Assembly: GCA_947466075.1 (NCBI GenBank)
Contig: CANIBP010000019.1
Coordinates: forward strand, 1 to 64,000
Source: Verrucomicrobiaceae bacterium
Lineage (GTDB): Bacteria > Verrucomicrobiota > Verrucomicrobiia > Verrucomicrobiales > Verrucomicrobiaceae
Direction: 5' to 3'
DNA: 64,000 bases
The notes under the pieces: generated by a model
Database searches by the model: none
What the model was told of the DNA's origin: nothing
Seen by the model: the letters and a program-made list of their open reading frames with translations, nothing else
Made by a program: the position numbers and the translations under genes
Shown here: positions 10,832 through 60,182 of the stretch, one piece after another
Position numbering within the stretch: position 1 is the first letter of the stretch
Layout: the number at the start of each line of letters is the position of its first letter

Positions 10832-13044
10832 TGCGATCTTCCATGAAACACGCCCTCACCCATCGAGACGACAAAAAGATTTGGGACAAAAACCGGAAGG
10901 CCCGAATCCTATTTTTCTGTCTCCAATCTTTTTGTCTTTCCGTCACCGCACTCCACGCCGCCGAGCCGGTCACCAACTCCATCGGCATGAAGCTCATGCG
11001 CATCGAGCCGGGCACGTTCACCATGGGCCAGGACGGGCCGCCGATGGAGGATTACCTGCGGCAAAAGCGGTTCGGCGAGATGCACAAGGATTTCGACCGG
11101 ATCGATTTTGATGAGAAGCCCGCGCACAAGGTCACCATCACGCAGCCATTTCAAATCGGAGTCACCGAGGTCACAGTGGCGCAGTATCGGCAGTTTGATC
11201 CCGAGTTTAAAAAGAACGACCCGAAGTCGAAGCCTGCGGATGACGATGCGGCGAGCGGTGTGACGTGGGAGCGGGCGGTGGCGTTCTGCGAATGGCTCTC
11301 GAAGAAGGAGGGCAAGACCTATCGCCTGCCAACCGAAGCGGAGTGGGAGTTTGCGTGCCGTGCGGGCACGACGACGCTTTTTCACACCGGCGGCACGTTG
11401 CCGGATGGGCATCAAAAGTGGTTCGGCGAGGACAACTTTCGCGGTGTGTATTTCCCAGCAGGACCAATGCCTCGCGAGTATGATTGGAGGAATGCCGGGA
11501 AGCCTGCGGCGAGCTTGAAGCAGGGGCAAATCATCGGCCTCACTCATCCGGTGGAGGAATCGAAGGCGGGTGGCTCGGGTGCATTGCGTGTGGCGCAGAA
11601 GACGCCGAATGCCTGGGGCCTGCACGACATGCATGGCAATGTGGCCGAGTGGTGCAGCGATTGGTATGGGCCGTATGAGAGCGGTGCGCAGACTGATCCG
11701 CTGGGGCGCGTGGATGGCGACTGTCGCGTGTTTCGCGGCGGGTTTCATTCGTCGATGATTCGCTTCCTGCGTTCGGCGAATCGCGGCTCGTGGGTGACGA
11801 ACTCCGCGAGCCCGCGTATTGGCTTCCGCGTCGTGCAGGGTGAGTTGCCGAAGGGAAAACCGCTGCCGCTGGCGGCGCCGCCGCTGAATGCGCAGAACGT
11901 GAGTCATCGTGATGCGGACACTCCTGTCCGCAGCGACTTCACGGACAAGAGTGTCCGTGTCACGGCAGATGCGCCGTTCTACGAAGGCCCGAAGCCTTAT
12001 GTGCGCATCCCGGATGGCGCTTTCGGCCCGGTATTCATCAGTCAGAATCACAGCCCGGCCATCACCGAGTGCCCGAATGGCGATCTGCTCGCCGTGTGGT
12101 TCTCCACCATGGGCGAAACCGATCTCACCACCGCAAACGCCGCCTCGCGGCTGCGTTATGGCGCAAAGGAATGGGAGCCGGCTTCATCGTTCTGGGACGC
12201 GCAGGATGTGAATGATCACGCACCGAAAATCTGGTGGGATGGCGACAAAACGCTCTACCACATCGTCGAAGGCCGACAGCATGGCGACATCCTGATCCGC
12301 CGCTCCACCGACAACGGCGTCACATGGTCCAAGGCCGAAGTGATGCGTGCGCACGGCGAGTCGGCGAGCCATCCCATCCGCACCAAGGAAGGCGTCATCG
12401 CGATCCCGTTCGACTTTTCCGGGCTCTCGATCAGCCGCGACAACGGCAAGAGCTGGAGCGAGACCGGGCGGGATCGTCGCGGTTCGGATGACATTCAACC
12501 CGGAGGCAAAGGCCCTTTCATCGCGGGCATTCATTCACCCATCGTCGAACTCGCCGACGGACGCCTCATGGCCTTCGGTCGTCTCTCAGCCGAGGAGCCC
12601 GCGCAAAAGCGTTTCGACCTCAAGATGCCCGTGAGCTACTCCAGCGACCTCGGCGAGACCTGGCAGTGGGAGGTCAGCGAGTTCCCCATCGTCAGCAACA
12701 CGCAGCGCCCCGCCATGCTGCGGCTCAAAGAAGGCCCCATCGTCCTGTGTTCCTTCACCGACCAGGCCCGCACGCCTTTCAAAGAACGCAAAGGCCTCAC
12801 CTTCAAATCCACCAGCGGCAACTACACCGGCATCGGCCTCTACGCCGCCGTGAGCTACGACGAAGGCAAAACCTGGCCCGACCGCCGCCTCATCGCCCCC
12901 GAAGGCAAAACCACCGCCGACATCAACGGCTACCTCGCCATCACCCAAACCCGCGACGGACGCATCCAACTCATCACCAGCAAGGACCACTACGCCTTCA
13001 ACCTCGCTTGGATCAAAGCGCTGGCGAATGGGCCGAAAAGGTGA
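10831..13044 (+). CDS. Secreted FGE-like (SUMF1) domain fused to a sialidase-like propeller
   Basis: 737 residues. The ATG at 10831 overlaps the previous stop; 10843 is an alternative. The leader is odd: a basic stretch then 'ILFFCLQSFCLSVTALHA', encoded by a palindromic element. Residues about 50-365 are a formylglycine-generating-enzyme-type domain ('SIGMKLMRIEPGTFTMG', 'YRLPTEAEWEFACRAGT', 'FRGGFH', 'RSANRG', 'GFRVV'). Residues about 390-735 are a BNR sialidase-like propeller ('SADGRLMAFGR'-type blades, 'SRDNGKSW'). The linker contains a second palindromic element. Such FGE-like domains often lack true FGE activity, so sulfatase activation should not be assumed. Likely an outer-surface or periplasmic carbohydrate protein. 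Confidence 0.75.
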   Translation: MRSSMKHALTHRDDKKIWDKNRKARILFFCLQSFCLSVTALHAAEPVTNSIGMKLMRIEPGTFTMGQDGPPMEDYLRQKRFGEMHKDFDRIDFDEKPAHKVTITQPFQIGVTEVTVAQYRQFDPEFKKNDPKSKPADDDAASGVTWERAVAFCEWLSKKEGKTYRLPTEAEWEFACRAGTTTLFHTGGTLPDGHQKWFGEDNFRGVYFPAGPMPREYDWRNAGKPAASLKQGQIIGLTHPVEESKAGGSGALRVAQKTPNAWGLHDMHGNVAEWCSDWYGPYESGAQTDPLGRVDGDCRVFRGGFHSSMIRFLRSANRGSWVTNSASPRIGFRVVQGELPKGKPLPLAAPPLNAQNVSHRDADTPVRSDFTDKSVRVTADAPFYEGPKPYVRIPDGAFGPVFISQNHSPAITECPNGDLLAVWFSTMGETDLTTANAASRLRYGAKEWEPASSFWDAQDVNDHAPKIWWDGDKTLYHIVEGRQHGDILIRRSTDNGVTWSKAEVMRAHGESASHPIRTKEGVIAIPFDFSGLSISRDNGKSWSETGRDRRGSDDIQPGGKGPFIAGIHSPIVELADGRLMAFGRLSAEEPAQKRFDLKMPVSYSSDLGETWQWEVSEFPIVSNTQRPAMLRLKEGPIVLCSFTDQARTPFKERKGLTFKSTSGNYTGIGLYAAVSYDEGKTWPDRRLIAPEGKTTADINGYLAITQTRDGRIQLITSKDHYAFNLAWIKALANGPKR
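10870..10936. repeat. Palindromic element A, copy 1, inside a signal-peptide coding region
   Basis: Left arm GACAAAAAGATTTGGGACA (10870-10888) and right arm TGTCTCCAATCTTTTTGTC (10918-10936) pair at 17 of 19 positions. The element lies wholly inside the coding sequence and supplies the charged leader and part of the hydrophobic core of the signal peptide. A second, perfect copy is at 40184-40250 and a lone right arm at 62620-62639. Confidence 0.85.
11914..11959. repeat. Palindromic element E at a domain linker
   Basis: Two adjacent hairpins, GCGGACA-ctcc-TGTCCGC (11914-11931) and CACGGACA-agag-TGTCCGTG (11940-11959), which are also roughly inverted copies of one another. They are translated in frame as part of the linker between the FGE-like and sialidase-like domains. 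This suggests an inserted element tolerated in a flexible segment. Confidence 0.75.
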
Positions 13045-24884: not shown

Positions 24885-27800
24885 ATGAGTCCGCTGATCC
24901 GATTCCTCATCCCCTCTTCAGTCGTGTGCCTCGCGCTCACGGCTGCTGCTGCCGATGATGCGGCTGACCGGGCGAAGGCTTATGCGGAGCGGATACACCC
25001 GTTGCTGGTGAAGACCTGCGGGAAATGCCACGGCAAGGAGCCCAAGGACAATGATCTCGACCTCACGAGCCTTGTCATCGCTGAGGCGCTTCTCGCGCAG
25101 CCGAAGGTGCTGGAGGACATTGCTGAGCGGTTGAATGAGGGTGACATGCCGCCAAAGAAGGCTGCGCAGCCGAGTTTGGCTGAACGAGATCAGTTGCTTG
25201 GCTGGATCGGAGCAGCGGTGGATAAGGTGGCGGCAGCACACGCGGGTGACCCTGGGCCGGTGACGCTGCGCCGGCTGACCAATGCGGAGTATGACCATGC
25301 GGTGCGTGATCTCACGGGCGTGGACATGCAGCCGACGCGGGCTGGTGAGTTTGCGCCCGATAGTGTGGGCGGCGAAGGGTTCGCGAACGTGGGTGAGGCC
25401 ATGCCGATGACTCCAGGTTTGGTGGAGCGCTATCATCAGGCCGCGCGCTATGTCGCGGCGCGGGCGGTGTTGTTGCCCACGGGCTTTCGATTTTCGTCTT
25501 CTCCAGATGGTCCTGATTGGACGACAGAGGCTGAGAAGGCACTGCGCAGTTTTCACTCGCGCTACGCCGGGGCCAATGGGGAGCCGCCGCTCGCTGCGCA
25601 TCTCGCGGCGACGTTGAAACATCGCGACCGGCTCACTCGCGGCGGTGCCTCCGCCATCGCGGAAGTCGCGGCGGAGGAGAAACTCAACGCGACTTACCTA
25701 GCCGCGCTCTGGGCCGGACTCAGCGGCAAGCGAGACGCATCTTTGCCAGTAGCGGAACTCGATGCGCAAACGAAGCAATGGGAGAAGAAGGCAGCCCAAG
25801 TGGAAGCCGAGAGGAAACAGCGCCAGTCGGCTCTCGACTCGGCGCGTCAGAAAATCGAGTCGCGCTGGGCTGCGTCGAAACGAGTGCTCGTGGAGTCGAA
25901 GGTTGCGGAAGGGGGCTCGGTCCCCTTCGAGCACAAGGTGTCGGTTCGGCGCGGCGAGCTGCTGCTCCTGACCGTGCTGCCCAACCAAAGCCACGGAGCC
26001 GACAGCACGCTCATCGAATGGACGATCCGCGAAACGACCGGCGATCAGCGAAGCTGGAGCGTCGCCGATGTGATTCCCGATCTGTTGAAGGGCAACCCCA
26101 GGCTGGACAAGCACGGGGCCAGTTGGAGCTTCCTGGAGACGACATCCTCCCCGGTGTTCCTCGCCGAACCGCGCGACAGCAACGGAGGGCGGTCCGAGGT
26201 GAAATCGTGGAGCCTCGGCTCCGAGCCCTCGATCTTCGTGAACACCGCCGCCGAGCCCTTGCAGGTCTGGACGAAGTTGCCCGCACGATCGGTCTTCGTG
26301 CATCCGGGGCCCAAGCGCCCCGTGGCGGTCGCCTGGACAAGCCCGATCGATGCCGAACTTGTGGTCTCAGGCCGTGTCGCCGATGCCCATCCCTCCGGAG
26401 GCGACGGCGTTTCATTCGAACTCTCGCACGTCGCGGCATCGGAGCTGGGCCAAGCGCTGGGTGTGAAGCCTGCCCCCCTGCCAGCTGTCGGCCTCCCGCC
26501 GGACATCATGGGCTTGGTCCGGGAAAAATGGCGCGCGGCCACGACCGATCCCGCACCCGTGCTCGCCGCGATCAAGGCCATGCGGGACAAGTTGTTCTGG
26601 AGCAACTACCGCCGGCATAATGTGCTGGCGGTCGGCAACGGCGTCCCTGCCTGGGTGGACATGCTCCGCGTGGTCGCCCGTGAGCAGGTCCAGGGTGCGG
26701 CCCGCGAACCGATCTTCCGGCTGGTCGCGCGGCAGGTGGCCCCTGCGATGCCGGGCACCTTCGTGGTTTGGGACCGTCTACGGTTGGAGAGCGGCGACGG
26801 GCCCACACTGGTGTTGGCGGAACACGCGGAACTGCGGGAAGCCGTCGAGGCGGCGTGCGGACTCCGGTTTGGCCTTCATCCGCAAGGCCGGCCCGTGCCA
26901 CCGGCCGCCCTGGTCACGGAGGCAGGTTCAGAGGTCCGCATCGACCTGCGGAAGCTGCCAGCGCCGCTCTTGAAGTCGCTCACGCTGCCGCGGTTTATCC
27001 GCGCCGATGTGAGCCTCGATGCCGGCAGCCCGGAGACGGCCACGGTCCAGGCTTTACTGCTCGCTGAGCCGGACCTCATGGACGCCAAGCAGACACGAGA
27101 AGGGCGGATCAACCCCACTTCATGGCGGTCCGGAGACCCACTCATCGCGGACGAGCCCGAGCCGCGGGTCGCGCAGATTGTGCATCCGCGCGTCGCCGCC
27201 GAGCGGGCCCAGCCGGCGGCGGAGTTTCGCGCCCTGTTTCCACCGGCGGTGCTCTTTGAGCCGATCATCCCGCGGGACGCCCAAGGAAGCCTTTTCATGT
27301 TCCACCGCGAGGACGAGCCGCTGCGCCGACTCCTGCTCGATGAGACAGGCCGGGCGGAGCTGGAACGTCTCTGGAGCGAACTGCATTTCCTGCGCGAGGA
27401 TGCGCCCGCCAACACGCTCATGTATGCGGAACTACTGAAGTTGTATTCCCAGAAAGGCCAGGCCCAGATGCACTTCTTCATCCAAACTTTTGAAGAACGC
27501 TTGAAACGGGATGATGCGGCACTCCTCGCCGATCAGGCCGCCGCCGAACCGAAGCACCTCGATGCGCTGCTCACTTTCGCCGCCCGGGCCTGGCGTCGGT
27601 CCCTCGGTGCCGATGAACGCGAAAACATTCTCGCTTCCTACCGCAGTGATCGTGCCGAGGGCATCAAGCACGATCCGGCCCTTCGCGCCGCTCTCGCCCG
27701 CGTGCTGTCATCGCCGTGGTTCCTTTACCGCGTGGAGCAGCCAGCGGACGGACCGCGCTGGCAGCCGGTGACAGGTGATGAGTTGGCCACGCGGCTGAGC

Positions 27801-28808
27801 TTCCTGCTTTGGGACTCGATTCCTGATGACGAACTGCGTGCGGCGGCCCCGCGTCTGCACGAGCCCGCCGTGATGGAGGCGCAGTTGCGTCGGATGATCA
27901 AAGACAGCCGGACGCGCGGCATGGCCGAGGAGTTCGGCGCTCGCTGGCTCGGCGTGCGGGACTTCGTCGCCAACCATGGCCGCAGCTTGAAGGACTTCCC
28001 CGAGTTCACCGACGCCGTGCGTGACGCGCTGGCCGAGGAACCGGTGCGTTTTTTTGAGGACCTGCTCATCAACGACCGCGCGGTGAGCGACGTGATCGCC
28101 ACCGATGCCGTCATCGTCAACGACGTGCTCGCCAAGCACTACGGCATCCCCGGTGTGACGGGGCCGGAGTGGCGTCGTGTGGAAAAAGTCGCCGCCTACG
28201 GTCGCGGCGGTCTGCTGGGACTCGGCGCCGTGCTCGCCAAGCAATCCGCCGCCGCCCGCACCAGCCCCATCAAGCGCGGGGCCTGGGTGGCCCGCATGCT
28301 CGGTGACCGGCTCCCGAATCCCCCGCCGAATGTGCCGCCGCTGCCCGATGTCGTGCCCGCCGGGCTGAGCGTCCGCGAACTGACCGAGCGTCACCGCAAG
28401 GACGCCAACTGCGCCGCCTGCCACGTGCGCATCGATCCGTATGGCATGACGCTGGAGCAGTTCGACGCCATCGGCCGCCTGCGGCCCGCCAGCGCGCTGA
28501 AGCCCGGCGAGAGCCGTGCGACATTGCGCGACGGCACCGATGTCCATGACTTCACCGGCCTACGAAACTACATCGCCGGCCCACGGCGCGAGGACTTGCT
28601 GCGCACACTCGCCCGCAAGCTGACCGGCTACGCCCTGAGCCGCGCCGTGCTGCCCTCAGACCGCGCGCTGGTTGATGAAGTCACCAAGACCATGATTGCC
28701 GGCGGACGCTGGTCGGACGCCCTGCTCGTCATCGTCCGCAGCGAGCCCTTCCGCTGCATCCGGCCCGCTGACGGGGCGATGAAGTCGGCAGACAACCGCA
28801 CGAAATGA
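24885..28808 (+). CDS. Secreted DUF1592-family haem protein (DUF1587/1592/1588/1585)
   Basis: 1307 residues. Signal peptide ('IPSSVVCLALTAAAADD'); N-terminal cytochrome c-like motif 'CGKCH' near 45; DUF1587 with 'LRRLTNAEYDHAVRDLTGVD' (about 128-147); a long middle region (about 200-840) with an Ala/Glu/Lys/Arg coiled stretch and beta-rich inserts; DUF1595/DUF1592 with 'LSFLLWDSIPDDELRAAAP'; DUF1588 with a second haem-type motif 'NCAACHVRIDPYGM' near 1174; DUF1585 at the C-terminus. These are abundant planctomycetal/verrucomicrobial surface or periplasmic proteins of unknown activity, usually paired with DUF1552 genes. A paralogue is at 33134. Here the nearest DUF1552 gene is three genes away. 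Confidence 0.85.
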   Translation: MSPLIRFLIPSSVVCLALTAAAADDAADRAKAYAERIHPLLVKTCGKCHGKEPKDNDLDLTSLVIAEALLAQPKVLEDIAERLNEGDMPPKKAAQPSLAERDQLLGWIGAAVDKVAAAHAGDPGPVTLRRLTNAEYDHAVRDLTGVDMQPTRAGEFAPDSVGGEGFANVGEAMPMTPGLVERYHQAARYVAARAVLLPTGFRFSSSPDGPDWTTEAEKALRSFHSRYAGANGEPPLAAHLAATLKHRDRLTRGGASAIAEVAAEEKLNATYLAALWAGLSGKRDASLPVAELDAQTKQWEKKAAQVEAERKQRQSALDSARQKIESRWAASKRVLVESKVAEGGSVPFEHKVSVRRGELLLLTVLPNQSHGADSTLIEWTIRETTGDQRSWSVADVIPDLLKGNPRLDKHGASWSFLETTSSPVFLAEPRDSNGGRSEVKSWSLGSEPSIFVNTAAEPLQVWTKLPARSVFVHPGPKRPVAVAWTSPIDAELVVSGRVADAHPSGGDGVSFELSHVAASELGQALGVKPAPLPAVGLPPDIMGLVREKWRAATTDPAPVLAAIKAMRDKLFWSNYRRHNVLAVGNGVPAWVDMLRVVAREQVQGAAREPIFRLVARQVAPAMPGTFVVWDRLRLESGDGPTLVLAEHAELREAVEAACGLRFGLHPQGRPVPPAALVTEAGSEVRIDLRKLPAPLLKSLTLPRFIRADVSLDAGSPETATVQALLLAEPDLMDAKQTREGRINPTSWRSGDPLIADEPEPRVAQIVHPRVAAERAQPAAEFRALFPPAVLFEPIIPRDAQGSLFMFHREDEPLRRLLLDETGRAELERLWSELHFLREDAPANTLMYAELLKLYSQKGQAQMHFFIQTFEERLKRDDAALLADQAAAEPKHLDALLTFAARAWRRSLGADERENILASYRSDRAEGIKHDPALRAALARVLSSPWFLYRVEQPADGPRWQPVTGDELATRLSFLLWDSIPDDELRAAAPRLHEPAVMEAQLRRMIKDSRTRGMAEEFGARWLGVRDFVANHGRSLKDFPEFTDAVRDALAEEPVRFFEDLLINDRAVSDVIATDAVIVNDVLAKHYGIPGVTGPEWRRVEKVAAYGRGGLLGLGAVLAKQSAAARTSPIKRGAWVARMLGDRLPNPPPNVPPLPDVVPAGLSVRELTERHRKDANCAACHVRIDPYGMTLEQFDAIGRLRPASALKPGESRATLRDGTDVHDFTGLRNYIAGPRREDLLRTLARKLTGYALSRAVLPSDRALVDEVTKTMIAGGRWSDALLVIVRSEPFRCIRPADGAMKSADNRTK

Positions 28809-33133: not shown

Positions 33134-36100
33134 ATGAAACCAGCCTTCAAAAAACCTGCTGAGCACACGATGACACGTAAAACAATGCGCGTTGAAAAAT
33201 GGCTGGCACTCATCGCCATCGCATCGTCTTCCATCCAAGCCTTTGCCGATCAAAAGCAGGTCTTCGAGCAAACCATTCAGCCTGTGCTGAAACAGTATTG
33301 CCTGGACTGTCACTCGACGAAGAAGCAGAAGGGCGATCTCGATTTGGAGCGCTTTACCTCACTCGATCTCGTGAAGCGTGATCCCGTCGTGTGGGAGCAT
33401 TCGCTGGATCAGATCCGCGACAAGGAGATGCCGCCGAAGGACAAGCCCCGGCCTTCGCCCAAACAGATGAAGCTTCTCTCGGACTGGATGCAGGGCACGC
33501 TGGATGACATCGCGCTCGCCAGCGCTGGTGATCCGGGGCCGGTGGTGCTGCGGCGTCTGTCGAACATGGAATACACTTACTCGATCCGTGATCTCACCGG
33601 CGTCCCGTCGCTCGATCCGGCGAAGGAGTTCCCCGTTGATGGTGCGGCTGGGGAAGGCTTCACCAACGCGGGTGCAGCTCTGGTGATGTCGCCTGCGTTG
33701 CTCACGAAATATCTCGATGCCGCGAAGGACGTGGCGAGCCACGCGGTGCTCACGCCGACAGGCATTCAGTTTTCCGCAGGCTCGTCATCGCGTGACTGGA
33801 CCGATGAGACACTGGCGAGGATTCGCGAGTTCTATGCTGAGTTCAGTGATACGACCGAGCAATCCGTCGCGGTCAATGGTGCTGAAAAAGTCAGTAACAA
33901 GGGAGGTCGGCTGCCGATCGACAAGTATCTGGCGGCCACTTTGCAGGAGCGTGCAGCCCTCGCCAGTGGCTCGAAGAAGATCGCTGATGTCGCGCGCGAA
34001 CGTCGCTTGAGCGCGAAGTATCTCGGGCTGCTATGGGCCATGTTGCAGGACAACAAACCCTCTGCGCTGCTCGATCCGCTGCGCGCGAAATGGCGCGAAG
34101 GCAGTCTGGCAGTGGCTGACATCGAAGCTTGGCAGCAGGCGCTTTGGCGCTTCACCAATATTGGACATCTGGGTAAAGTCGGCGGCCCGAAGTCCTGGCT
34201 GGAACCGGTGACACCGCTCGCGGCGCAGCATGAGTTGCGGATGAAGTTGCAGCCTCCGTCGGACGGCGGCGATCTCACGCTGTATCTCACCACCAGCGAT
34301 GCGGGGGATGGAAACGCGAACGATTTTGCCCTCTGGGAAAAAGCGCGACTCATCACGCCAGGTCATGGCGAGCTGCTCCTGCGCGATGTGCGCTCGGTCG
34401 TGCAACAGATGATGCGACATCGCGATACAGTGACAGAAAGCGTGGTGAGATGTCTCGCGGCAGCGAACGAGGCGACGAGTGCAGATGGCCGTCCTGACCT
34501 CCTCGCGCTTGCGAAGAAGCACAATGTCGATGGCAAAGTGCTCGCGGGTTGGCTGAATTACCTCGGCATTGGCACTGCGGGCGAAGTGAAACTGGAACCG
34601 CTGCTCGTGAAGAAATCGGAGCGCTCTCCGGCCTATGAGTTCATCAAAGGTTGGACCGGTGACAATGCTCTCAGCGTGCTGGCGAACTCCTCCGATGCCA
34701 CGGTGAAAATTCCTGGCACGATGCCGCCGCACAGCGTTGCCACACATCCCTCGCCGAAGCTTGCATCGGTCATCGCGTGGCGCAGTCCGGTCACCGGCAC
34801 GCTGCGAGTGAGCGGCAAACTTCAGGACGGGCACACGGTGTGCGGCAACGGCATCACCTATGCGCTGGAACTGCGGCGCGGCCAGACGCGCGAGGTGCTC
34901 GCCGCTGGCGAAAGCAAGGGCTCGACAGTGATCCCGATGGGACCGTTTCAAAACGTGCGCGTGATGACTGGCGATGTCATTGCGCTGGTCATCGATCCGC
35001 GCGATGGCGACCACACCTGCGATCACACGATGGTGAATCTGACCCTGAACGATGGTAAAACCGAGTGGGATCTCGCCAAGGATGTTTCGCCGAACATCCT
35101 GGCTGGCAATCCGCACGCTGACCGTCACGGCAACAAAGCGGTGTGGCATTTCCTGAGTCAACAAGCGGCGGGAGCGGCATCGTCTGTCATCCCCAGTGAT
35201 TCGCTGTTGTCAAAATGGCAGAAAGCGAAGGACGTCGACGAGTTTGCACGAATCGCTGCACAAGTGCAGCAGTTGCTCCAGCAAGACGCTGCAGCCTTGA
35301 AGGCGAGCCCGACCGATCGCGAACTGCGCAACCAGCTTCTCTCGTTCAACGGTCCGCTGCTCGCCGACGCATGGCGCTCGGTGAAAGCGCAGGCCGGAGA
35401 TGGCCCGGCGTCGCCTTACGGACTCGATCCTGCGATGTTCGGCAAGCATCCCAAAGGCGGCGAGGTTGCCGCGACGAGCCTCTGCGTGCAGGCACCGTCA
35501 GTCATTGAATTGAGACTCCCCGCATCGCTGCTGGCGGGCGCTGAACTGGTGACCACTGGCCGCTTGCATCCCGCCAGTGGCGGGGAAGGCAGCGTGCAAA
35601 TGCGGGCGCTCACCACGAAGCCAGCCGCGTTATCAGGATTGCAAGCCACGGCGGCAAGTTCGGCCAAGGAAGGCGGCGCATGGAACTCCAGCAAGCCCCC
35701 GGTGATTTTCGATTCGCCGATCCTGGTGCAAGATGGAAGCGCCGCACGTCAGCGTTTCGAAAGGGCCTTCGATGACTTCCGCGGCCTATTCCCTGCCGCG
35801 CTGTGCTACACCAAGATCGTGCCTGCCGATGAGGTGGTGACGCTGACCTTGTTCCATCGCGAGGACGAGCAACTCAGGCGATTGATCCTCGACGATGCGC
35901 AAAGTGCTGCGCTCGACCGCCTTTGGGATGAATTGCATTTCGTCAGTCAGGATGCCCTCACGCTGGTGGATGCCTTTGAGCAGATCTGGCAGTTCTCCTC
36001 ACAAGACGGCCCCGACGCGCCCAATGGCGACAAACGACTGGAGCCGCTGCGGGAGCCGATCATGCGCGGAGCCGAGGCCTTCAAGAAACTGCAAATCGAA

Positions 36101-37393
36101 GTGGAGCCCAAACAGGTGCAAGCAGTGCTCGACTTCGCCACGCAGGCATGGCGTCGCCCGCTCAGAGACACAGAGCAGAAAGAACTGCGCACCCTTTATC
36201 AAAAGCTGCGCACGCAGGAGATGCCGCACGCCAAAGCTGTGCGCATGATGCTTGCGCGAGTGCTCGTGGCACCGGCATTTCTCTATCGCGGCGAAAAAGC
36301 CGCGCCAGGACCAAAAGCCACGCCAGTGAACGATTGGGAGATGGCCACGCGCCTCAGTTACTTCCTCTGGTCCTCCGCGCCCGATGCCGAACTCACGCAG
36401 CTCGCTACCACAGGCAAACTCCAAGAGCCCGATGTGCTCGTCGCGCAAGTGAAGCGCATGATGAAGGACGAGCGCATCCGCCGCCTCGCCACCGAGTTTG
36501 GCTGCCAATACCTGCACGTCCGCGAAGTCGCCACACTCGATGAAAAGAGCGAGCGCCACTTCCCCACCTTCGTGAATGTGCGTGAGTCCATGCAGGAAGA
36601 AGTCACCCGCTTCTTCATCGACCTGTTTCAGAATGATCGCAGCGTGCTCTCGCTGCTCGATGCGGATTACACCTTCGTGAATGCGGAGTTGGCAGCACAT
36701 TACGGAATGAAGGCAGAAGAATGGGGGCAGAAAAATACTTCTGTTCCTCATTCTCCTGCCCCCATTCTTCTGCCTACTTCAGATTGGCACCGAGTGGATC
36801 ACATCCGTTCTCAAGGTCGCGGCGGCATCCTGGGCTTCGCTGCCACACTCGCGAAGCAAGCCGGTGCCTCGCGCACCAGCGGCATCTTGCGCGGGGCTTG
36901 GCTCTGCGAAGTGGTGCTCGGCGAGAAGCTTCCGGTTCCACCCAAAGGCGTGCCCATTCTCCCCGAGCAACCGCCCGAAGGTCTCACCGAACGCCAACTC
37001 GTCGAGAAGCACAGCTCGGATGCGAACTGTGCTGCCTGCCACCGCCGCATTGATCCCTTCGGCTTTGCCCTTGAAGGCTTCGACGCCATCGGACGCTCTC
37101 GCAAAGCCGACACGAAGGTCTTATTGCCAGATGGCTCTCGCGTCGATGGTCTTGACGGCTTGCGCAGTTACCTGCTGGACAACCGCAGCGATGATTTCTT
37201 GCGTCAGTTCTGCCGCAAGTTGGTCGGCTATGCCTTGGGCCGCAGCGTGCAACTCTCGGACAAGCCGTTGATCGCTTCCATGCTCACCCAACTCAAATCC
37301 GGCGACCACAACGTCGGTGCCGCCATCGAGTTGATCGTTCGCAGTCCGCAGTTTCGCGAAGTGCGCGGTAAAGATTTCGTCGTCCATAACTAA
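33134..37393 (+). CDS. Secreted DUF1592-family haem protein with an in-frame palindromic insert
   Basis: 1419 residues. Starts at 33134, 33170 or 33185 are possible; the signal peptide 'KWLALIAIASSSIQAFA' follows the last. Order as in the paralogue at 24885: haem motif 'CLDCH' near 56, DUF1587 ('LRRLSNMEYTYSIRDLTGVP'), long variable middle, DUF1595/DUF1592 ('ATRLSYFLWSSAPDAELTQL'), DUF1588 with 'NCAACHRRIDPFGFALEG' near 1298, and DUF1585. Relative to the paralogue an extra segment of about 20 residues ('WGQKNTSVPHSPAPILLP') lies between 'HYGM' and 'DWHRVDHIRSQGRGG'; it is encoded by a perfect palindrome. Likely partner of one of the flanking DUF1552 proteins. Confidence 0.85.
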   Translation: MKPAFKKPAEHTMTRKTMRVEKWLALIAIASSSIQAFADQKQVFEQTIQPVLKQYCLDCHSTKKQKGDLDLERFTSLDLVKRDPVVWEHSLDQIRDKEMPPKDKPRPSPKQMKLLSDWMQGTLDDIALASAGDPGPVVLRRLSNMEYTYSIRDLTGVPSLDPAKEFPVDGAAGEGFTNAGAALVMSPALLTKYLDAAKDVASHAVLTPTGIQFSAGSSSRDWTDETLARIREFYAEFSDTTEQSVAVNGAEKVSNKGGRLPIDKYLAATLQERAALASGSKKIADVARERRLSAKYLGLLWAMLQDNKPSALLDPLRAKWREGSLAVADIEAWQQALWRFTNIGHLGKVGGPKSWLEPVTPLAAQHELRMKLQPPSDGGDLTLYLTTSDAGDGNANDFALWEKARLITPGHGELLLRDVRSVVQQMMRHRDTVTESVVRCLAAANEATSADGRPDLLALAKKHNVDGKVLAGWLNYLGIGTAGEVKLEPLLVKKSERSPAYEFIKGWTGDNALSVLANSSDATVKIPGTMPPHSVATHPSPKLASVIAWRSPVTGTLRVSGKLQDGHTVCGNGITYALELRRGQTREVLAAGESKGSTVIPMGPFQNVRVMTGDVIALVIDPRDGDHTCDHTMVNLTLNDGKTEWDLAKDVSPNILAGNPHADRHGNKAVWHFLSQQAAGAASSVIPSDSLLSKWQKAKDVDEFARIAAQVQQLLQQDAAALKASPTDRELRNQLLSFNGPLLADAWRSVKAQAGDGPASPYGLDPAMFGKHPKGGEVAATSLCVQAPSVIELRLPASLLAGAELVTTGRLHPASGGEGSVQMRALTTKPAALSGLQATAASSAKEGGAWNSSKPPVIFDSPILVQDGSAARQRFERAFDDFRGLFPAALCYTKIVPADEVVTLTLFHREDEQLRRLILDDAQSAALDRLWDELHFVSQDALTLVDAFEQIWQFSSQDGPDAPNGDKRLEPLREPIMRGAEAFKKLQIEVEPKQVQAVLDFATQAWRRPLRDTEQKELRTLYQKLRTQEMPHAKAVRMMLARVLVAPAFLYRGEKAAPGPKATPVNDWEMATRLSYFLWSSAPDAELTQLATTGKLQEPDVLVAQVKRMMKDERIRRLATEFGCQYLHVREVATLDEKSERHFPTFVNVRESMQEEVTRFFIDLFQNDRSVLSLLDADYTFVNAELAAHYGMKAEEWGQKNTSVPHSPAPILLPTSDWHRVDHIRSQGRGGILGFAATLAKQAGASRTSGILRGAWLCEVVLGEKLPVPPKGVPILPEQPPEGLTERQLVEKHSSDANCAACHRRIDPFGFALEGFDAIGRSRKADTKVLLPDGSRVDGLDGLRSYLLDNRSDDFLRQFCRKLVGYALGRSVQLSDKPLIASMLTQLKSGDHNVGAAIELIVRSPQFREVRGKDFVVHN
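36711..36775. repeat. Palindromic element B, copy 1, in frame within DUF1592 gene
   Basis: Left arm GGCAGAAGAATGGGGGCAG (36712-36730) and right arm CTGCCCCCATTCTTCTGCC (36756-36774) are perfect inverted copies, one more base pair extending each end. The loop is 25 bases. The whole element is translated. The paralogous protein at 24885 lacks it at the aligned position, which supports insertion. A partly eroded copy is at 59288-59335. Confidence 0.92.
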
Positions 37394-38741: not shown

Positions 38742-40211
38742 ATGCCGACCGTCATGCGGGCTCTTTTTCTTCTCGCGCTGGCGTGCCAAGCCGCGCCAGC
38801 CGCCGATGCTGCTTTATCGAAAAAGCCCAACGTTCTCTTTGTCGTCTTCGACGACTTGAACAACCGCCTTGGCTGTTACGGCGATCCGGTGGCGAAGTCG
38901 CCGAACCTTGATCGGCTTGCGGCTCGCGGCACGGTGTTCACGCGGAACTTCTGCCAGCAGCCGATTTGCGGTCCATCGCGCGCCTCGTTCATGAGCGGGC
39001 GCAGGCCTGACTCGCTGGGCATCTGGAGCATGACGAAGTATCTCTACGATCTGCATCCAGATGCGGTGACGATGCCGCAGTGGTTCATGCAGCACGGCTA
39101 CACGTCCATGAGTATTGGCAAAGTGCTTGGCGGCTATGGCAAGGAAGCGGACTTCAAGACACTGAGCGTGCCGGATCGTCGCACGGGCGGCAAAACGAAG
39201 GATGAGTTTGCCTTGCCAAATGGAGCTGCTTTGCCGCCAAACCTCGCGAAGGATCTGCTCTGTGAGAGTCGCGATGTGCCGGACGAAGCGTGCTTTGACA
39301 ACGTGTCGGCCAGTCTCGCGATTACCGAGTTGCGGGCGCTTGCGAAGAAGCCAGAGCCGTTCTTTCTCGCGCTGGGCATCTTCAAGCCGCACACGCCTTA
39401 CAAGGTGCCGAAGCGCTACTGGGACATGTATCGTCGAGAGGACATCCCGGCCATCGAGACGCCCGCACGGCCTCGCAACGCGCCCGAGATCGCCTTTCAC
39501 GCGAACCACGAAATCCTTGGCGAGCCGACTGTCCGCCGCACACTCGATGAGGATGCCAAGCGCGAGATCCGTCACGGTTACTATGCCGCGATGAGTTTCG
39601 CCGACGCGCAGTTTGGCCGCGTGCTGGATGCGCTCGATGAACTGAAGCTCCGCGACAACACCATCGTCGTCATCATTGGCGACAACGGCTTTCATCTTGG
39701 CGAGCACGATGTCTGGGGCAAGATGACCTTGTTCGGCTGGGACGCCCGCGTGCCGCTCATCATCAGCGCTCCAGGCATCGGAAAGGGCGGCGCGAAGACC
39801 AGCGCCATCAGCGAGTTGATCGACGTCTTTCCCACGCTCACGGACCTCAGCGGTCTTCCATCTCCTCCTCAGTTCGACGGCACTAGCCTCGTGCCGGTCC
39901 TCAAGGACTCCTCAGCCACCGTGAAAGCCGCCGCGCTCACGCAGCATCCACGCCCTGCTCTTTACTGGGGCGGCGGACCGCAGGCCTTGCCGCAAGTGAT
40001 GGGCTACGCGCTCAAAACCGACCGCTGGAGCTACCATGAGTGGCGCGACTTCAACACCGGCCATGTGGTCGGCCAGGAACTCTATGACGAGCAAACCGAT
40101 CCGCTCGAAACGGTGAACCTCGCAGGCACCGTTGAAGCTGCGGCACAGATCCCCGCGCTTGCTAAGCAACTCCGATCAATAACGACAAAAAGATTGGAGA
40201 CAAAAAGATGA
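38742..40211 (+). CDS. Secreted sulfatase, iduronate-2-sulfatase-like
   Basis: 489 residues from 38742 (an in-frame ATG at 38754 would give a cleaner signal, 'MRALFLLALACQAAPAADA'). Sulfatase hallmarks: metal-binding 'LFVVFDDLNNRLGCYG', the formylglycine motif C-x-P-S-R in 'QPICGPSRASFMSGRRP', 'FLALGIFKPHTPYKVP', 'VVIIGDNGFHLGEHDVWGKM' carrying the second metal Asp-Asn. Cys-type, so it needs an FGE. The last dozen residues ('RSITTKRLETKR') and the stop codon come from palindromic element A. The substrate would be a sulfated glycan; desulfation position unknown. Translation is coupled to the next sulfatase by ATGA. Confidence 0.88.
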   Translation: MPTVMRALFLLALACQAAPAADAALSKKPNVLFVVFDDLNNRLGCYGDPVAKSPNLDRLAARGTVFTRNFCQQPICGPSRASFMSGRRPDSLGIWSMTKYLYDLHPDAVTMPQWFMQHGYTSMSIGKVLGGYGKEADFKTLSVPDRRTGGKTKDEFALPNGAALPPNLAKDLLCESRDVPDEACFDNVSASLAITELRALAKKPEPFFLALGIFKPHTPYKVPKRYWDMYRREDIPAIETPARPRNAPEIAFHANHEILGEPTVRRTLDEDAKREIRHGYYAAMSFADAQFGRVLDALDELKLRDNTIVVIIGDNGFHLGEHDVWGKMTLFGWDARVPLIISAPGIGKGGAKTSAISELIDVFPTLTDLSGLPSPPQFDGTSLVPVLKDSSATVKAAALTQHPRPALYWGGGPQALPQVMGYALKTDRWSYHEWRDFNTGHVVGQELYDEQTDPLETVNLAGTVEAAAQIPALAKQLRSITTKRLETKR

Positions 40212-40250
40212 GGAATAGAAATCCATTTTTCTGTCTCCAATCTTTTTGTC
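40184..40250. repeat. Palindromic element A, copy 2, at a sulfatase-sulfatase junction
   Basis: Left arm GACAAAAAGATTGGAGACA (40184-40202) and right arm TGTCTCCAATCTTTTTGTC (40232-40250) are perfect over 19 bases. The left arm encodes the C-terminal tail of the upstream sulfatase. The loop holds the overlapping stop and start (ATGA at 40208). The right arm encodes the first hydrophobic residues of the next signal peptide. Confidence 0.92.
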
Positions 40251-41761
40251 GCGCTGTTTTCATCGCGCTGCTGCTGCTTGCTCCGACAGCTGGAGTGCAT
40301 GCTGAGGCATTACTGAAGAAGCCCAACGTCCTGTTCATCGCCATCGATGATCTGAAGCCTCTGCTCGGCTGTTATGGCGCATCGTGGATCAAGTCGCCAA
40401 ACATCGATCGCCTCGCATCGCGCGGCACGCGGTTTACGGCGAACTACTGCCAGGTCTCCTTCTGCGCGCCTTCGCGCTTCAGTCTGCTCACAGGTTTGCG
40501 GCCGGATACGACGCGCGTCGTAGTCAATCCCGCGAAGCAGGACGACCTTCTGCGCAAGCGCTTCCCGGACATCGTCACGCTGCCGCAGCACTTCAAAAAC
40601 AACGGCTTCCTTACCTGCGCCATGGGCAAGGTCTTCGATGGTCGGACCGTGGACGACGGCCATGACACCGCTTCGTGGTCGGTGCCGTATGTGCGTCGAT
40701 TTGATGAAGCGCCCGGCGGTCTTGGCAAGCCGCCAGGTTATCAAAACAAAAGCACGCAACAACAACTCGCCGCTGCCGCATCCGGCATACAAGGGCCGCC
40801 GGTGGAGTGCGAGGACGTTCCCGACAACGCCTACTACGACGGTGCGATGGCGCGCACTGGAGCGGCGAAGATCCGGGAGTTTGCGAAGGCAAAGCAACCG
40901 TTCTTTCTCGCGGTTGGATTCTTGCGACCGCATCTGCCATTCATAGCGCCGAAGAAATATTGGGACCTCTACGACCGGGCAAAGCTGCCGCTCGCTCCCT
41001 TTCAAACGATGCCTGCCAGCAGCCCGCACGACCTCGCCTTTTACAGCAACTCCGGCGAGCTGCGAGCCTGGTCGGATGTGCCAAAGACCGGCCTGATCCC
41101 CGAGACGCTTCAGCGCGAACTCATCCATGGATACGCAGCCTCGGTTTCTTACAGCGATGCCAATGTCGGCCTGTTGATGGCCGCGTTGGAAGAAGCTGGC
41201 GCGCTTGAGAACACCATCGTCTGCGTGTGGGGCGACCACGGCTGGCATCTCGGTGAGCACGGACATTGGGGCAAGGTCACCAACTACGAGGATGCGACCC
41301 GCGCGCCACTCTTCATTGCCGCGCCCGGCCATAGACAGGGCGCAGAGGTGAAAGCCATCACGGAGTTCATCGATGTCTATCCCACACTCTGCGATCTCGC
41401 CGGCCTGTCGAAGCCAGCGCATTTGCAAGGCACCAGCCTCACGCCTTTGCTTGGCGAGTTGCGGACCACGCTGCACGAAGCTGCGATCAGCCAGATGACT
41501 CCCAACGCCAGCAAGGATGGCGTGATGGGTTGGACACTGCGCACGCCACGCTACCGCTATATCGAATGGCGTCGCGCCGACCTTAGCACCGAAACACCTC
41601 ACATCACCGATCAAGTCGAGTCCGTCGAACTATACGACTACCAGACTGATCCGCTCGAACGCGAGAACCTCGCAGGCAAGCCGGATCACCTCGCCGCACT
41701 CAAAGAGCAACAAGCCCTCTTCGACAAACTGCTGCCGCATCTGCCGAAGCGCTTGGAATAA
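40208..41761 (+). CDS. Secreted sulfatase, iduronate-2-sulfatase-like, second copy
   Basis: 517 residues. The leader 'FFCLQSFCRAVFIALLLLAP' begins within palindromic element A and continues into normal signal sequence. Hallmarks: 'LFIAIDDLKPLLGCYG', formylglycine site 'VSFCAPSRFSLLTGLRPDT', 'FLAVGFLRPHLPFIAPKKYW', 'VCVWGDHGWHLGEHGHWGKV' and a C-terminal 'YRYIEWRR' segment. The IDS-like arrangement is shared with the upstream sulfatase but identity is moderate, so they probably hit different sulfate positions. Together with the preceding gene it forms a coupled pair; the ABM gene follows after 17 A-rich bases. Confidence 0.88.
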   Translation: MRNRNPFFCLQSFCRAVFIALLLLAPTAGVHAEALLKKPNVLFIAIDDLKPLLGCYGASWIKSPNIDRLASRGTRFTANYCQVSFCAPSRFSLLTGLRPDTTRVVVNPAKQDDLLRKRFPDIVTLPQHFKNNGFLTCAMGKVFDGRTVDDGHDTASWSVPYVRRFDEAPGGLGKPPGYQNKSTQQQLAAAASGIQGPPVECEDVPDNAYYDGAMARTGAAKIREFAKAKQPFFLAVGFLRPHLPFIAPKKYWDLYDRAKLPLAPFQTMPASSPHDLAFYSNSGELRAWSDVPKTGLIPETLQRELIHGYAASVSYSDANVGLLMAALEEAGALENTIVCVWGDHGWHLGEHGHWGKVTNYEDATRAPLFIAAPGHRQGAEVKAITEFIDVYPTLCDLAGLSKPAHLQGTSLTPLLGELRTTLHEAAISQMTPNASKDGVMGWTLRTPRYRYIEWRRADLSTETPHITDQVESVELYDYQTDPLERENLAGKPDHLAALKEQQALFDKLLPHLPKRLE

Positions 41762-55624: not shown

Positions 55625-56914
55625 ATGACAGCCTCTTTCGCCATCGATCCCATCGCTCTTCGCCGCAAGGTCGCGTGGCGTGTGCTGCCTTTGGTCATCC
55701 TGCTCTACATCATCTCCTACCTCGACCGTGCGAACGTGGCCTTTGCCAAGCTGCGCATGGGCGAGGCGCTGGGGTTTTCGGAAGATGTGTTCGGCTTCGG
55801 CATTGGCGTGTTCTTCATCGGTTATCTGTTCCTGGAGATTCCTGGTGCGCTGCTGGTGGAGCGATGGAGTGCGCGGAAGTGGTTCGCGCGTATCCTGATC
55901 ACCTGGGGCTTCATCTCTGCGGCGATGGCCTTTGTGCACACGCCGTCGCAGTTCTACTGGGCGCGGTTCTTCCTCGGTGTGGCGGAGGCTGGATTCTTTC
56001 CCGGCATCATCGTGTATTTCACACACTGGTTTGCGCAGAATGATCGCTCGCGAGCGCTGTCAGGGCTGCTCGTGGCCGTGCCTTTCAGTCTTGCGCTCGG
56101 TGCGCCGGTGTCGTCGATGCTGCTGGATGTGAAATGGTTTGGACTCGATGGCTGGCAGTGGCTTTTCATCGTAGAGGGATTGCCTGCTGTGGTGATGGGG
56201 TTCATGGTTCTCACGTGCCTCACGGATCGACCTCGAAATGCAACATGGCTCACTCAAGCCGAGCGTGATCATCTGGAAGGTGTGCTCGCTGCCGAGGCGG
56301 CGGCAAAGGAAGCGACGGGCAAAATTTCCGTCTGGCAGGCGCTACGGTTGCCCGCTGTTTGGCTACTGGTAGTCGGCGTGCTGGTGGGCAACAGCGGCGG
56401 CTATGCGCTTAGCTTTTGGTTACCGACCACGGTGAAGAATCTTTCCGGCGGCTCTGATCAATTGACGCTGCTCTACAGTGGCCTCTTCTACAGTTGCGGC
56501 ATCCTCAGCGTGCTCATCTCCGGCCAGACCGCAGACAGAACGGGAGATCGCAAATGGCACGCGGTGTGCGGCATGATCGCCACGGGCATCTTCCTCCTGT
56601 GCAGCACGATTCCGGGACAAGGATTCGGCACGCAGATGATCTGGCTCTGCCTCACGGCGCTGGGCGCATTCTTCTGGATCGCACCGTTTTGGACACTGCC
56701 CTCGCTCACGCTCACCGCCTCCGCCGCCGCAGTGGCCACCGGTCTGATCAACATGGGAGCGAACCTCGCTGGCTACGCTGGCAACCACGTCACCGGCTGG
56801 CTGCGCACGCACGGCTATGGCGAAATGCAGTGCCTTCACTTCCTCGCTGCCTGCTTCATTTTCGGCGGCATCATCATCAGCTTTCTACGTCTCAAACCAC
56901 GCAGGTTGGAGTGA
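55625..56914 (+). CDS. MFS transporter, anion:cation symporter family, second copy
   Basis: 429 residues with about 12 hydrophobic segments. N-terminal ACS features: 'YIISYLDRANVAFAKLRMGE', 'FLEIPGALLVERWSARKWFA', 'FLGVAEAGFFPGIIVYFTHW'. The D-R-x-G motif A is replaced by 'ERWSARKW', which is common in the tartrate/phthalate permease branch. Probable import of a sugar acid or related carboxylate used by the surrounding enzymes. The stop codon lies inside the left arm of palindromic element D, so the last residues ('PRRLE') border that repeat. Confidence 0.82.
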   Translation: MTASFAIDPIALRRKVAWRVLPLVILLYIISYLDRANVAFAKLRMGEALGFSEDVFGFGIGVFFIGYLFLEIPGALLVERWSARKWFARILITWGFISAAMAFVHTPSQFYWARFFLGVAEAGFFPGIIVYFTHWFAQNDRSRALSGLLVAVPFSLALGAPVSSMLLDVKWFGLDGWQWLFIVEGLPAVVMGFMVLTCLTDRPRNATWLTQAERDHLEGVLAAEAAAKEATGKISVWQALRLPAVWLLVVGVLVGNSGGYALSFWLPTTVKNLSGGSDQLTLLYSGLFYSCGILSVLISGQTADRTGDRKWHAVCGMIATGIFLLCSTIPGQGFGTQMIWLCLTALGAFFWIAPFWTLPSLTLTASAAAVATGLINMGANLAGYAGNHVTGWLRTHGYGEMQCLHFLAACFIFGGIIISFLRLKPRRLE

Positions 56915-56985
56915 TGGAGCAATGGAGTGGTGCGCCACTTCAACTCCTCCATTTCTCCATCAATCCACTTCTCCATCAATCCACT
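56906..56985. repeat. Palindromic element D spanning the MFS stop and E1 leader
   Basis: Left arm TGGAGTGATGGAGCAATGGAG is nearly complementary to CTCCATTTCTCCATCAATCCA on the right, around an inner AGTGG/CCACT pair. The right-arm word TCTCCATCAATCCACT is then tandemly repeated (56954-56969 and 56970-56985), ending five bases before the E1 ATG. Partial relatives (CACTCCACCAATCC, CACTCCAATCATCCAC) precede the genes at 22931 and 49055. Confidence 0.75.
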
Positions 56986-58976: not shown

Positions 58977-60182
58977 ATGCCTAACAACATCACATTACCC
59001 CGTCTCGGCTGGTCCATGGAGGAAGGCAAGTTCCTCGCCTGGCTGAAGAAAGATGGTGACTTCATCAAAGAAGGCGATCCGCTCTTCACGCTTGAAAGCG
59101 ACAAAGCCGCGCAAGAAGTTGAAGCCATCGATAGTGGCCTCTTACACATCGCACCCAATGGTCCCAAGCCCGGCGACGTTATCAAAGTCGGGCACGTGCT
59201 CGGCTACTTGCTCGCCGAAGGAGAAAGCGCACCGGTTGCCAACCACTCTGCGACAAAGTCAAAAGAGCTGAGCGAAGCGCATCAATCGGCACAGAAGAAT
59301 CTGCTTCATTCTCCTGCCCCCATTCTCCTGCCTACAGAAGCCCGTACTGAGACACCCGCCAGCCCCCGCGCCCGTCGCGCCGCCAAACAGAAACAGGTAG
59401 ATATCTCCACGCTGTCCCCCACCGGCAAAGGCGGACGTATCCGCGAGCGCGATGTCCTTGCCGCGGCAACTGCCATCCCAACCGCCGGGATGAGGCAGGT
59501 TCCGCTCACGCAAATGCGGCGCATCATTGCCGCACGGCTCATGCACAGCCGGCAGACCACAGTCCCCGTCACCATCACCGGACGTTGCGATGCCACCGCG
59601 CTCCTCGCCCTCCGCAAGCAGCTCAAATCCATGGGCGAAAAAGCGGACCTCGCCGTCATTCCCACCATCAACGACATCCTCGTCAAACTCGCCGCCGCCG
59701 CCTTGCGACAGCATCCCATGCTCGCCGCCACTTGGGCAGAAGATCATCTCCTGCTCCCCGAAAGCATCCACCTCGGCATCGCTGTGGACACCGAAGCTGG
59801 CCTTCTCGTCCCGGTCATCCGCGACGTAGGCACCTCCACGCTCACCCAGATCGCCGCGCAATCACAGAAGCTCATCGCCGCCGCCCGCTCCGGTCAGCTC
59901 GCCGCAGCGGACATGCAGGGCGCTTGCTTCACGCTTAGCAATCTCGGCAGCTTCGGTGTCGAAGCCTTCACCCCAGTCATTAATCCCCCCGAGTCTGCCA
60001 TCCTCGGCATCGGTGCCATCGTGCGCGAGGCCGTGCCGCTCGACGACGGCACCTTCACCGCGCGTGACCGCCTCACGCTCAGCCTCACCTTTGATCATCG
60101 CGTGAACGACGGTGCCGCCGCCGCGCGCTTTCTGCAAACCCTCCGCCAACTCATCGAACACCCTCTCCTCGGGCTCGTATAA
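58977..60182 (+). CDS. Dihydrolipoamide acyltransferase (E2)
   Basis: 401 residues. One lipoyl domain (1-80) with 'LFTLESDKAAQEVEA', the Lys near 43 being lipoylated. A linker of about 35 residues contains 'NLLHSPAPILLPT' from palindromic element B. The peripheral subunit-binding domain is 'ASPRARRAAKQKQVDISTLS' with 'GTGKGGRIRERDV'-type sequence (about 125-160). The catalytic core (about 170-401) has 'FTLSNLGSFGVEAFTPVINP' and the active-site 'FDHRVNDGAAAARFL' near 372. Transfers the acyl group from E1 to CoA. No E3 gene is nearby, so a housekeeping dihydrolipoamide dehydrogenase must serve it. Confidence 0.88.
   Translation: MPNNITLPRLGWSMEEGKFLAWLKKDGDFIKEGDPLFTLESDKAAQEVEAIDSGLLHIAPNGPKPGDVIKVGHVLGYLLAEGESAPVANHSATKSKELSEAHQSAQKNLLHSPAPILLPTEARTETPASPRARRAAKQKQVDISTLSPTGKGGRIRERDVLAAATAIPTAGMRQVPLTQMRRIIAARLMHSRQTTVPVTITGRCDATALLALRKQLKSMGEKADLAVIPTINDILVKLAAAALRQHPMLAATWAEDHLLLPESIHLGIAVDTEAGLLVPVIRDVGTSTLTQIAAQSQKLIAAARSGQLAAADMQGACFTLSNLGSFGVEAFTPVINPPESAILGIGAIVREAVPLDDGTFTARDRLTLSLTFDHRVNDGAAAARFLQTLRQLIEHPLLGLV
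59288..59335. repeat. Palindromic element B, copy 2, eroded, in the E2 linker
   Basis: The right arm CTGCCCCCATTCTCCTGCC and preceding TTCATTCTCC match the copy at 36711-36775 closely. The left arm is shortened to GGCACAGAAGAAT. Both copies translate to '-HSPAPILLPT-', so the same frame is used in two unrelated proteins. The site is the flexible linker between lipoyl and subunit-binding domains. Confidence 0.82.

Follow-up and report, generated by a model that had tools for sequence, protein, structure and literature searches.

Palindromic repeats inserted in frame in Verrucomicrobiaceae genes flank a GxxExxY-type nuclease gene and may be mobilised by its product

A palindrome found in frame within a DUF1592 protein gene of a Verrucomicrobiaceae bacterium is probably the solo form, not autonomous by itself, of a palindromic mobile element that encodes a GxxExxY nuclease, and which works in the manner of a REP/RAYT system with a different enzyme. 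Related palindromes are dispersed through this genome and those of its relatives, where they are physically associated with the nuclease gene, and the distribution of occupied and empty sites demonstrates that they are mobile. The nuclease would then be the enzyme that drives this mobility.

Palindromic insertions in protein coding sequences

The window, by which is meant the whole stretch of 64,000 nucleotides that was analysed, contains the insert, the gene that hosts it and several related sequences (Table 1). The insert has the sequence AGGCAGAAGAATGGGGGCAG...CTGCCCCCATTCTTCTGCCT, and its arms match at 20/20 bp, or at 23/25 when extended to 25 bp. Folded as single-stranded DNA, the two strands reach -22.4 and -23.8 kcal/mol (z ~-8.2), a stability equalled by no shuffled sequence, and a pattern search for the palindrome within the window returned three matches where 0.01 were expected. 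The reading frame of the host gene continues through the element, such that the protein reads HYGM-KAEEWGQKNTSVPHSPAPILLPTS-DWHRV. An earlier note made from the sequence alone had described a palindrome with 20-bp arms, inserted in frame between HYGM and DWHRV in a DUF1592 protein and absent from a paralogue in the same window, and on all three points it was correct.

Table 1. Positions in the window of the palindromes and of the genes associated with them
Feature	Position	Strand	Details
Palindromic insert, solo, GGCAG subfamily	36711..36775	.	Arms 36712-36736 and 36750-36774, loop 13 nt
Host gene of insert, 1419-aa DUF1587/1592/1588/1585/1595 protein with cytochrome-c-like domain	33134..37393	+	Carries the insert in frame
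Empty-site paralogue of host gene	24885..28808	+	Site reads HYGIPGVTGPEWRRV, codon at 28137
Decayed relative	59288..59332	.	Right arm 59308-59332 intact, left arm internally shortened
Host of the 59288 copy, dihydrolipoamide acyltransferase (E2; domains: lipoyl, E3-binding, catalytic)	58977..60182	+	Copy in frame in the linker
Second intact palindrome, GACAAAAAGATTGGAGAC subfamily	40184..40250	.	Holds start codon 40208 of next gene
Sulfatase gene, N-terminus MRNRNPFFCLQSFCR encoded by palindrome	40208..41761	+	
Third palindrome, more diverged, GACAAAAAGATT subfamily	10870..10936	.	In frame near N-terminus of ORF 10843-13044

Alignment of DUF1592 homologues across the site did not reveal a diverged, non-palindromic loop common to all close relatives; instead most orthologues lack the segment, including that of G001, in which it is 51 bp shorter at 90% identity. 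The same element is present in G026 (96% identity), and a GACAG variant of it in G010. The suggestion that this is merely a variable loop of the protein, palindromic by chance, would suit a tolerant linker in which the lengths of orthologues vary. It can nevertheless be dismissed almost entirely, as it is ruled out by orthologues of as much as 90% identity whose site is empty and by the same DNA occurring at many unrelated places, and is at odds with perfect 20-bp arms that fold with a z score of about -8.

The same loop has been occupied independently more than once. Four genomes (G015, G029, G007 and G047) carry a different palindrome there, of the CCCGCAGATTCAG type, while in G011 (locus L202) the loop holds a REPIN-like double hairpin bearing a GTAG tag, so that one site serves both a repeat of the RAYT type and the palindrome associated with the nuclease. 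At the linker of the acyltransferase E2 in which the 59288 copy lies, a CCCACAGATTCAGGGAGG-type palindrome is found in G026 and G044, no palindrome is present in G014 or G043, and the G001 sequence looks like the decayed remnant of one. These repeated, independent hits at two loci imply that tolerant linkers are hit by several families of repeat, and that the in-frame insertions are the survivors. The empty orthologous sites in both genes are diverged too far to give exact insertion junctions at which a target-site duplication could be read. A second palindrome family, CCCGCAGATTCAGGGAGGCCCGCAGATT, was observed in frame at these two protein loops in relatives (L203, L206-L208, L230 and L231).

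With regard to the copy at 59288, the earlier note held that the same DNA recurs there, again translated as HSPAPILLPT. One whole arm is indeed common to this sequence and the 36711 insert (18/19 positions), as is the translation, and the copy is in frame; but its left arm lacks ~12 nt and the stable hairpin is gone (z -0.3), making it a truncated and decayed relative rather than a second perfect palindrome. Two further family members in the window, 40184-40250 and 10870-10936, were absent from that note. The former also contains the signal-peptide-like N-terminus of the sulfatase whose gene begins within it, and the ORF around the latter encodes FGE-sulfatase and BNR domains.

Five copies of the GACAAAAAGATT subfamily, consisting of these two and those at L273 (contig C60), L274 (C19:70692) and L275 (C41), lie at the 5' ends of genes with mostly exported-looking products, and in four of the five the right arm encodes (P)FFCLQSF within a signal-peptide-like N-terminal region. 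Judged by sequence, these palindromes look to have been co-opted as a start codon and putative signal peptide. The window also contains a weak inverted repeat at 56913-56961 (GATGGAGCAATGGAG...CTCCATTTCTCCATC), which scores barely above noise with the covariance model of the family, R1, and is probably unrelated to it.

Distribution and structure of the palindrome family

A degenerate pattern gave 30 arm matches in the 6.37-Mb source genome, compared with no matches to the reversed control, and R1 identified approximately 25-28 palindrome places, a count that rests on the candidate list of the search. It is probably low, because some of the copies sit at contig ends (C70, C62, C89, C20 and C1). 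The source genome is Prosthecobacter-like, and the family is present in low copy number there. Further in-frame copies in it were found in the genes for a DEAH helicase with a DUF3418 domain and for a second DUF1592 protein.

Each arm is internally a direct repeat, GGCARRRGAATGGGG-GCARRRGAAT. Between copies the arms covary, with two-sided changes in 10/25 pairs, and 93% of cells in the alignment pair, as opposed to ~50% once the register is slid. Subfamilies can be distinguished as GGCAG, GGCAA, GACAG, GACAAAAAGATT and others. Matches to R1 are present in 36 of 56 genomes (the source and its relatives), with a patchy distribution mostly confined to the same genus, and the named loci place the carriers in the Verrucomicrobiaceae, Prosthecobacter MAGs included. 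No Rfam family matched the palindrome at the gathering score, the only hits being miRNA-like hairpins below that threshold.

Association with a nuclease gene

Pairs of palindromes lying ~900 bp apart enclose one ORF, encoding a PD-(D/E)XK protein, and no other ORF is present in the inspected units. The enclosed protein scores 72-78 bits with Pfam PF13366 (cut-off 22) and 66-72 bits with NCBIfam TIGR04256 (cut-off 35). Seven PF13366 genes were found in the source genome, of which two, both encoding long forms of ~265 aa that start with MPI, adjoin R1 palindromes.

A profile search for the long-form nuclease that ignored the palindromes produced 41 matches in 24 of the 56 genomes, although seven of the founding sequences of the profile, having been found via palindromes, are not independent of them. 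When 53 distinct long-form genes (search matches together with named loci) were considered, a palindrome scoring at least 11 was present at 68 of 103 testable flanks, but in just 1 of 198 control windows taken from elsewhere in the same loci (Fisher's exact test, p = 6e-40). At a stricter threshold, 12 of the 53 genes are without a palindrome. The same palindrome-nuclease-palindrome architecture is seen at loci from the named genome collection, some of which are the same records as other genomes searched. A search of open-access full texts did not find this association described; GxxExxY proteins are widespread, yet almost absent from that literature, with two incidental mentions among 5.39 million papers.

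In most cases the end of the upstream hairpin is 3-20 nt 5' of the ATG, and the downstream hairpin adjoins the stop codon or overlaps with it. The loops of the two flanking palindromes agree in sequence and orientation at 26 of 29 genes (p = 1.1e-5), and hence the nuclease gene lies between direct repeats of the palindrome. The upstream position would suit translational control of the kind known for some IS200-type transposases. It is improbable, however, that the palindromes serve primarily to regulate the nuclease gene, as hairpin operators or similar structures (for instance a 5' hairpin hiding the ribosome site), with the remaining copies in the genome being chance or relic sequences: an operator has no need of a second, equally oriented copy downstream, and solo palindromes are found in unrelated genes, at a distance from every nuclease, and opposite empty sites in relatives. 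Regulation may be an additional role of these repeats.

Palindromes and nucleases diversify together. The median similarity of the upstream and downstream arms is 0.77 at one locus, against 0.26 across loci, and arm similarity tracks the identity of the nuclease proteins (Mantel rho = 0.43, p = 5e-4), as flank sequences would also do through linkage alone. With the flanking copies subtracted, the number of palindromes correlates with that of nucleases across the 56 genomes (rho = 0.51) and more modestly within the genus (rho = 0.40, p = 0.02). Six genomes (G005, G007, G010, G014, G017 and G025) have palindromes and no detected long-form nuclease, which is to be read as loss of the gene or incomplete assembly. 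One solo palindrome (L087 4497-4557; G000 C4:58496) is situated 2.4 kb downstream of a nuclease unit and has the loop start and orientation of the palindromes flanking it, which suggests that it is a local copy of them.

Features of the nuclease

The residues D79, E88 and K90, corresponding to the D..ExK catalytic residues, are invariant in 35/35 long forms. In the motif from which the family takes its name, E41 is invariant and Y44 nearly so, and the G position is L or F in most long forms. These proteins score above both curated cut-offs for the GxxExxY family (PF13366 and TIGR04256), but differ from it in mostly having L/F-x-x-E-x-x-Y for the motif and in an additional C-terminal PD-(D/E)XK-like domain. 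Close pairs of nucleases mostly have dN/dS values of 0.05-0.3, indicating that the gene is under purifying selection.

In an AlphaFold2 model (pLDDT 90.8), the best structural match to the N-terminal domain is the Cas4-like protein SSO0001 (4ic1; Z 8.7, rmsd 2.8, 97 residues), followed by restriction enzymes with Z of 6-8. The C-terminal domain, when predicted alone, again ranks PD-(D/E)XK folds highest, with weak Z of 5-6 (SSO0001, TT1808, CinB, SwaI and EcoRV), and in the model it repeats the helix and strand order of the N-terminal domain, without the catalytic residues. The predicted structure thus points to a pseudodimer of two fused PD-(D/E)XK folds, in which one site would be live and the other apparently dead. 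No convincing sequence relatives were found in the PDB, and Foldseek returned no match at E < 0.001 for either domain. An origin in phage was rejected, as no relative of the nuclease could be found among viral contigs, and so was membership of a defence system, for which PADLOC gave weak Cas4 matches only and PHROGs a single weak, unnamed match.

Cassette exchange and a model for mobility

Two genomes, G000 and G024, have a nuclease unit between the same two sulfatase genes, which share 91% and 90% DNA identity. The nucleases between them are only 66% identical, with the change located at the palindromes, and fall into separate supported clades of a maximum-likelihood tree. This implies that the cassette has been replaced, or has inserted twice at one place. 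Searching for an empty site of the whole unit by means of the sulfatase genes identified the replaced cassette only, and no close empty orthologue.

Homing, too, would be expected to replace a cassette at one site, the breakpoints falling at the palindromes. The main alternative is that the nuclease is a homing-type passenger, inserting into or between palindromes that are old, or are spread by something else, and that serve as its target and as the homology by which it is copied; the existence of genomes with palindromes and no nuclease would be in keeping with this. Such an explanation nonetheless appears unlikely, because each nuclease lineage has its own palindrome variant on both sides and no other gene was consistently found beside the palindromes.

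The preferred explanation remains that of a palindromic element moved by the nuclease it encodes. The full unit would comprise a palindrome, the gene for the ~265-aa GxxExxY-type PD-(D/E)XK nuclease and a second palindrome that repeats the first in the same orientation. The pseudodimeric nuclease would recognise the repeated module (GGCARRRGAATG and its lineage variants) when extruded as a hairpin or cruciform, and would nick or cut at the extruded palindrome, whereupon either the palindrome or the entire cassette would be copied elsewhere through repair or re-insertion. Solo copies could arise through recombination between the direct-repeat palindromes, or through the palindrome moving alone, and those that happened to be in frame in tolerant linkers would survive as protein decoration. 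Within this scheme we infer that the substrate is a hairpin and that it is nicked rather than cut, and likewise the route to the solos.

Comparison with other repeat families

In common with REP/RAYT systems, short palindromes are dispersed through the genome at ~25-28 places, flank a low-copy, single nuclease gene and occur in frame within genes. They differ in that the enzyme is a PD-(D/E)XK protein (PF13366) and not an HUH nuclease, that one long nested-repeat hairpin replaces the GTAG/CGTC-tagged pair, and that the flanking palindromes are direct repeats. The earlier note had suggested a REP-associated Y1_Tnp transposase as the partner to look for, and the insert could in principle be a REP or REPIN moved by such a RAYT: the genome contains three Y1_Tnp genes, three of the C19 copies of the palindrome terminate in CTAC, which is complementary to the GTAG tag, and the loop in question is filled in G011 by a genuine double hairpin with a GTAG tag. 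Against this, no match to R1 lies in the 9.7 kb around the three Y1_Tnp genes; a GTAG/CGTC tag is missing from most copies, whose hairpins have other neighbours in all but those three; the palindrome is one 25-bp hairpin containing nested direct repeats and not a tagged REP pair; and the family is strongly associated with another nuclease. Y1_Tnp was therefore rejected as the partner of these palindromes, a place taken instead by the GxxExxY nuclease, to which the note did not point, and movement by a RAYT seems very improbable.

A parallel with Rickettsia palindromic elements, which the earlier note drew with emphasis on its occurrence in a PVC chromosome, is upheld by the in-frame habit and by the empty sites in relatives. 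GTAG REPs in the genes of Opitutus terrae provide an in-frame precedent in a PVC bacterium (PMC3733652); since REPs in verrucomicrobial genes have already been reported, the in-frame habit alone is not new. As with the Rickettsia elements, the insertions are found in frame in unrelated protein genes (those for DUF1592 proteins, E2 and the DEAH helicase) and are tolerated in linkers, but they are shorter (51-88 bp), have a candidate mobilising enzyme and belong to a free-living verrucomicrobium; the likeness drawn here is one of habit. That the same protein loops are hit by unrelated palindrome families implies that the decoration of proteins by palindromes recurs outside Rickettsia.

There is also a resemblance to MITEs, in which solos made of inverted repeats lack autonomy and accompany a coding unit whose ends are related to them, although the inspected units hold only the PF13366 ORF and no DDE transposase, and each end is itself a complete palindrome. 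Homing endonucleases similarly consist of a single nuclease gene, and their cassettes are exchanged at one site whose flanks are conserved; here, by contrast, the gene lies outside any intron or intein and is accompanied by dispersed palindromes.

Generality and implications

Among short GxxExxY genes within the order, palindromes of other sequence occur at 22/66 flanks, compared with 2/148 random windows, and among the top-scoring short genes across the phylum, five of them from plasmids, at 11/70 flanks compared with 1/54 controls. A flanking palindrome was present in one of the five plasmid genes, all of which were inspected. As this association is far weaker for the short than for the long forms, it is not claimed for all GxxExxY proteins. 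Individual short genes (L106, L112, L114-L117, L120, L126, L128 and L129) have similar nested-repeat flanking palindromes of other sequence, the types observed being CACGGAGGCACGGAG, CGCAGAGGACGCAGAG, CTACGGAACACACGGAATACACGGAA and CACGAAGACACGAAG. On the borders of some GxxExxY genes from environmental bacteria there are palindromes of three types, CCACGGAG, CACGGAAT and CGCAGAG.

We give even chances to the proposal that these observations represent an undescribed class of prokaryotic mobile element, consisting of one gene, in which a pseudodimeric GxxExxY nuclease moves the nested-repeat palindromes flanking it, and that other GxxExxY proteins of environmental bacteria, including those whose genes have CCACGGAG, CACGGAAT and CGCAGAG palindromes beside them, belong to the same system. 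The joint diversification of nuclease and palindrome makes specificity directly testable in vitro. The proposal would, if true, provide a function for a large family of unknown role; as it stands it is a first functional hypothesis for GxxExxY proteins, and it points to a candidate engine, besides the Y1 transposases, for the dispersed palindromes of bacteria.
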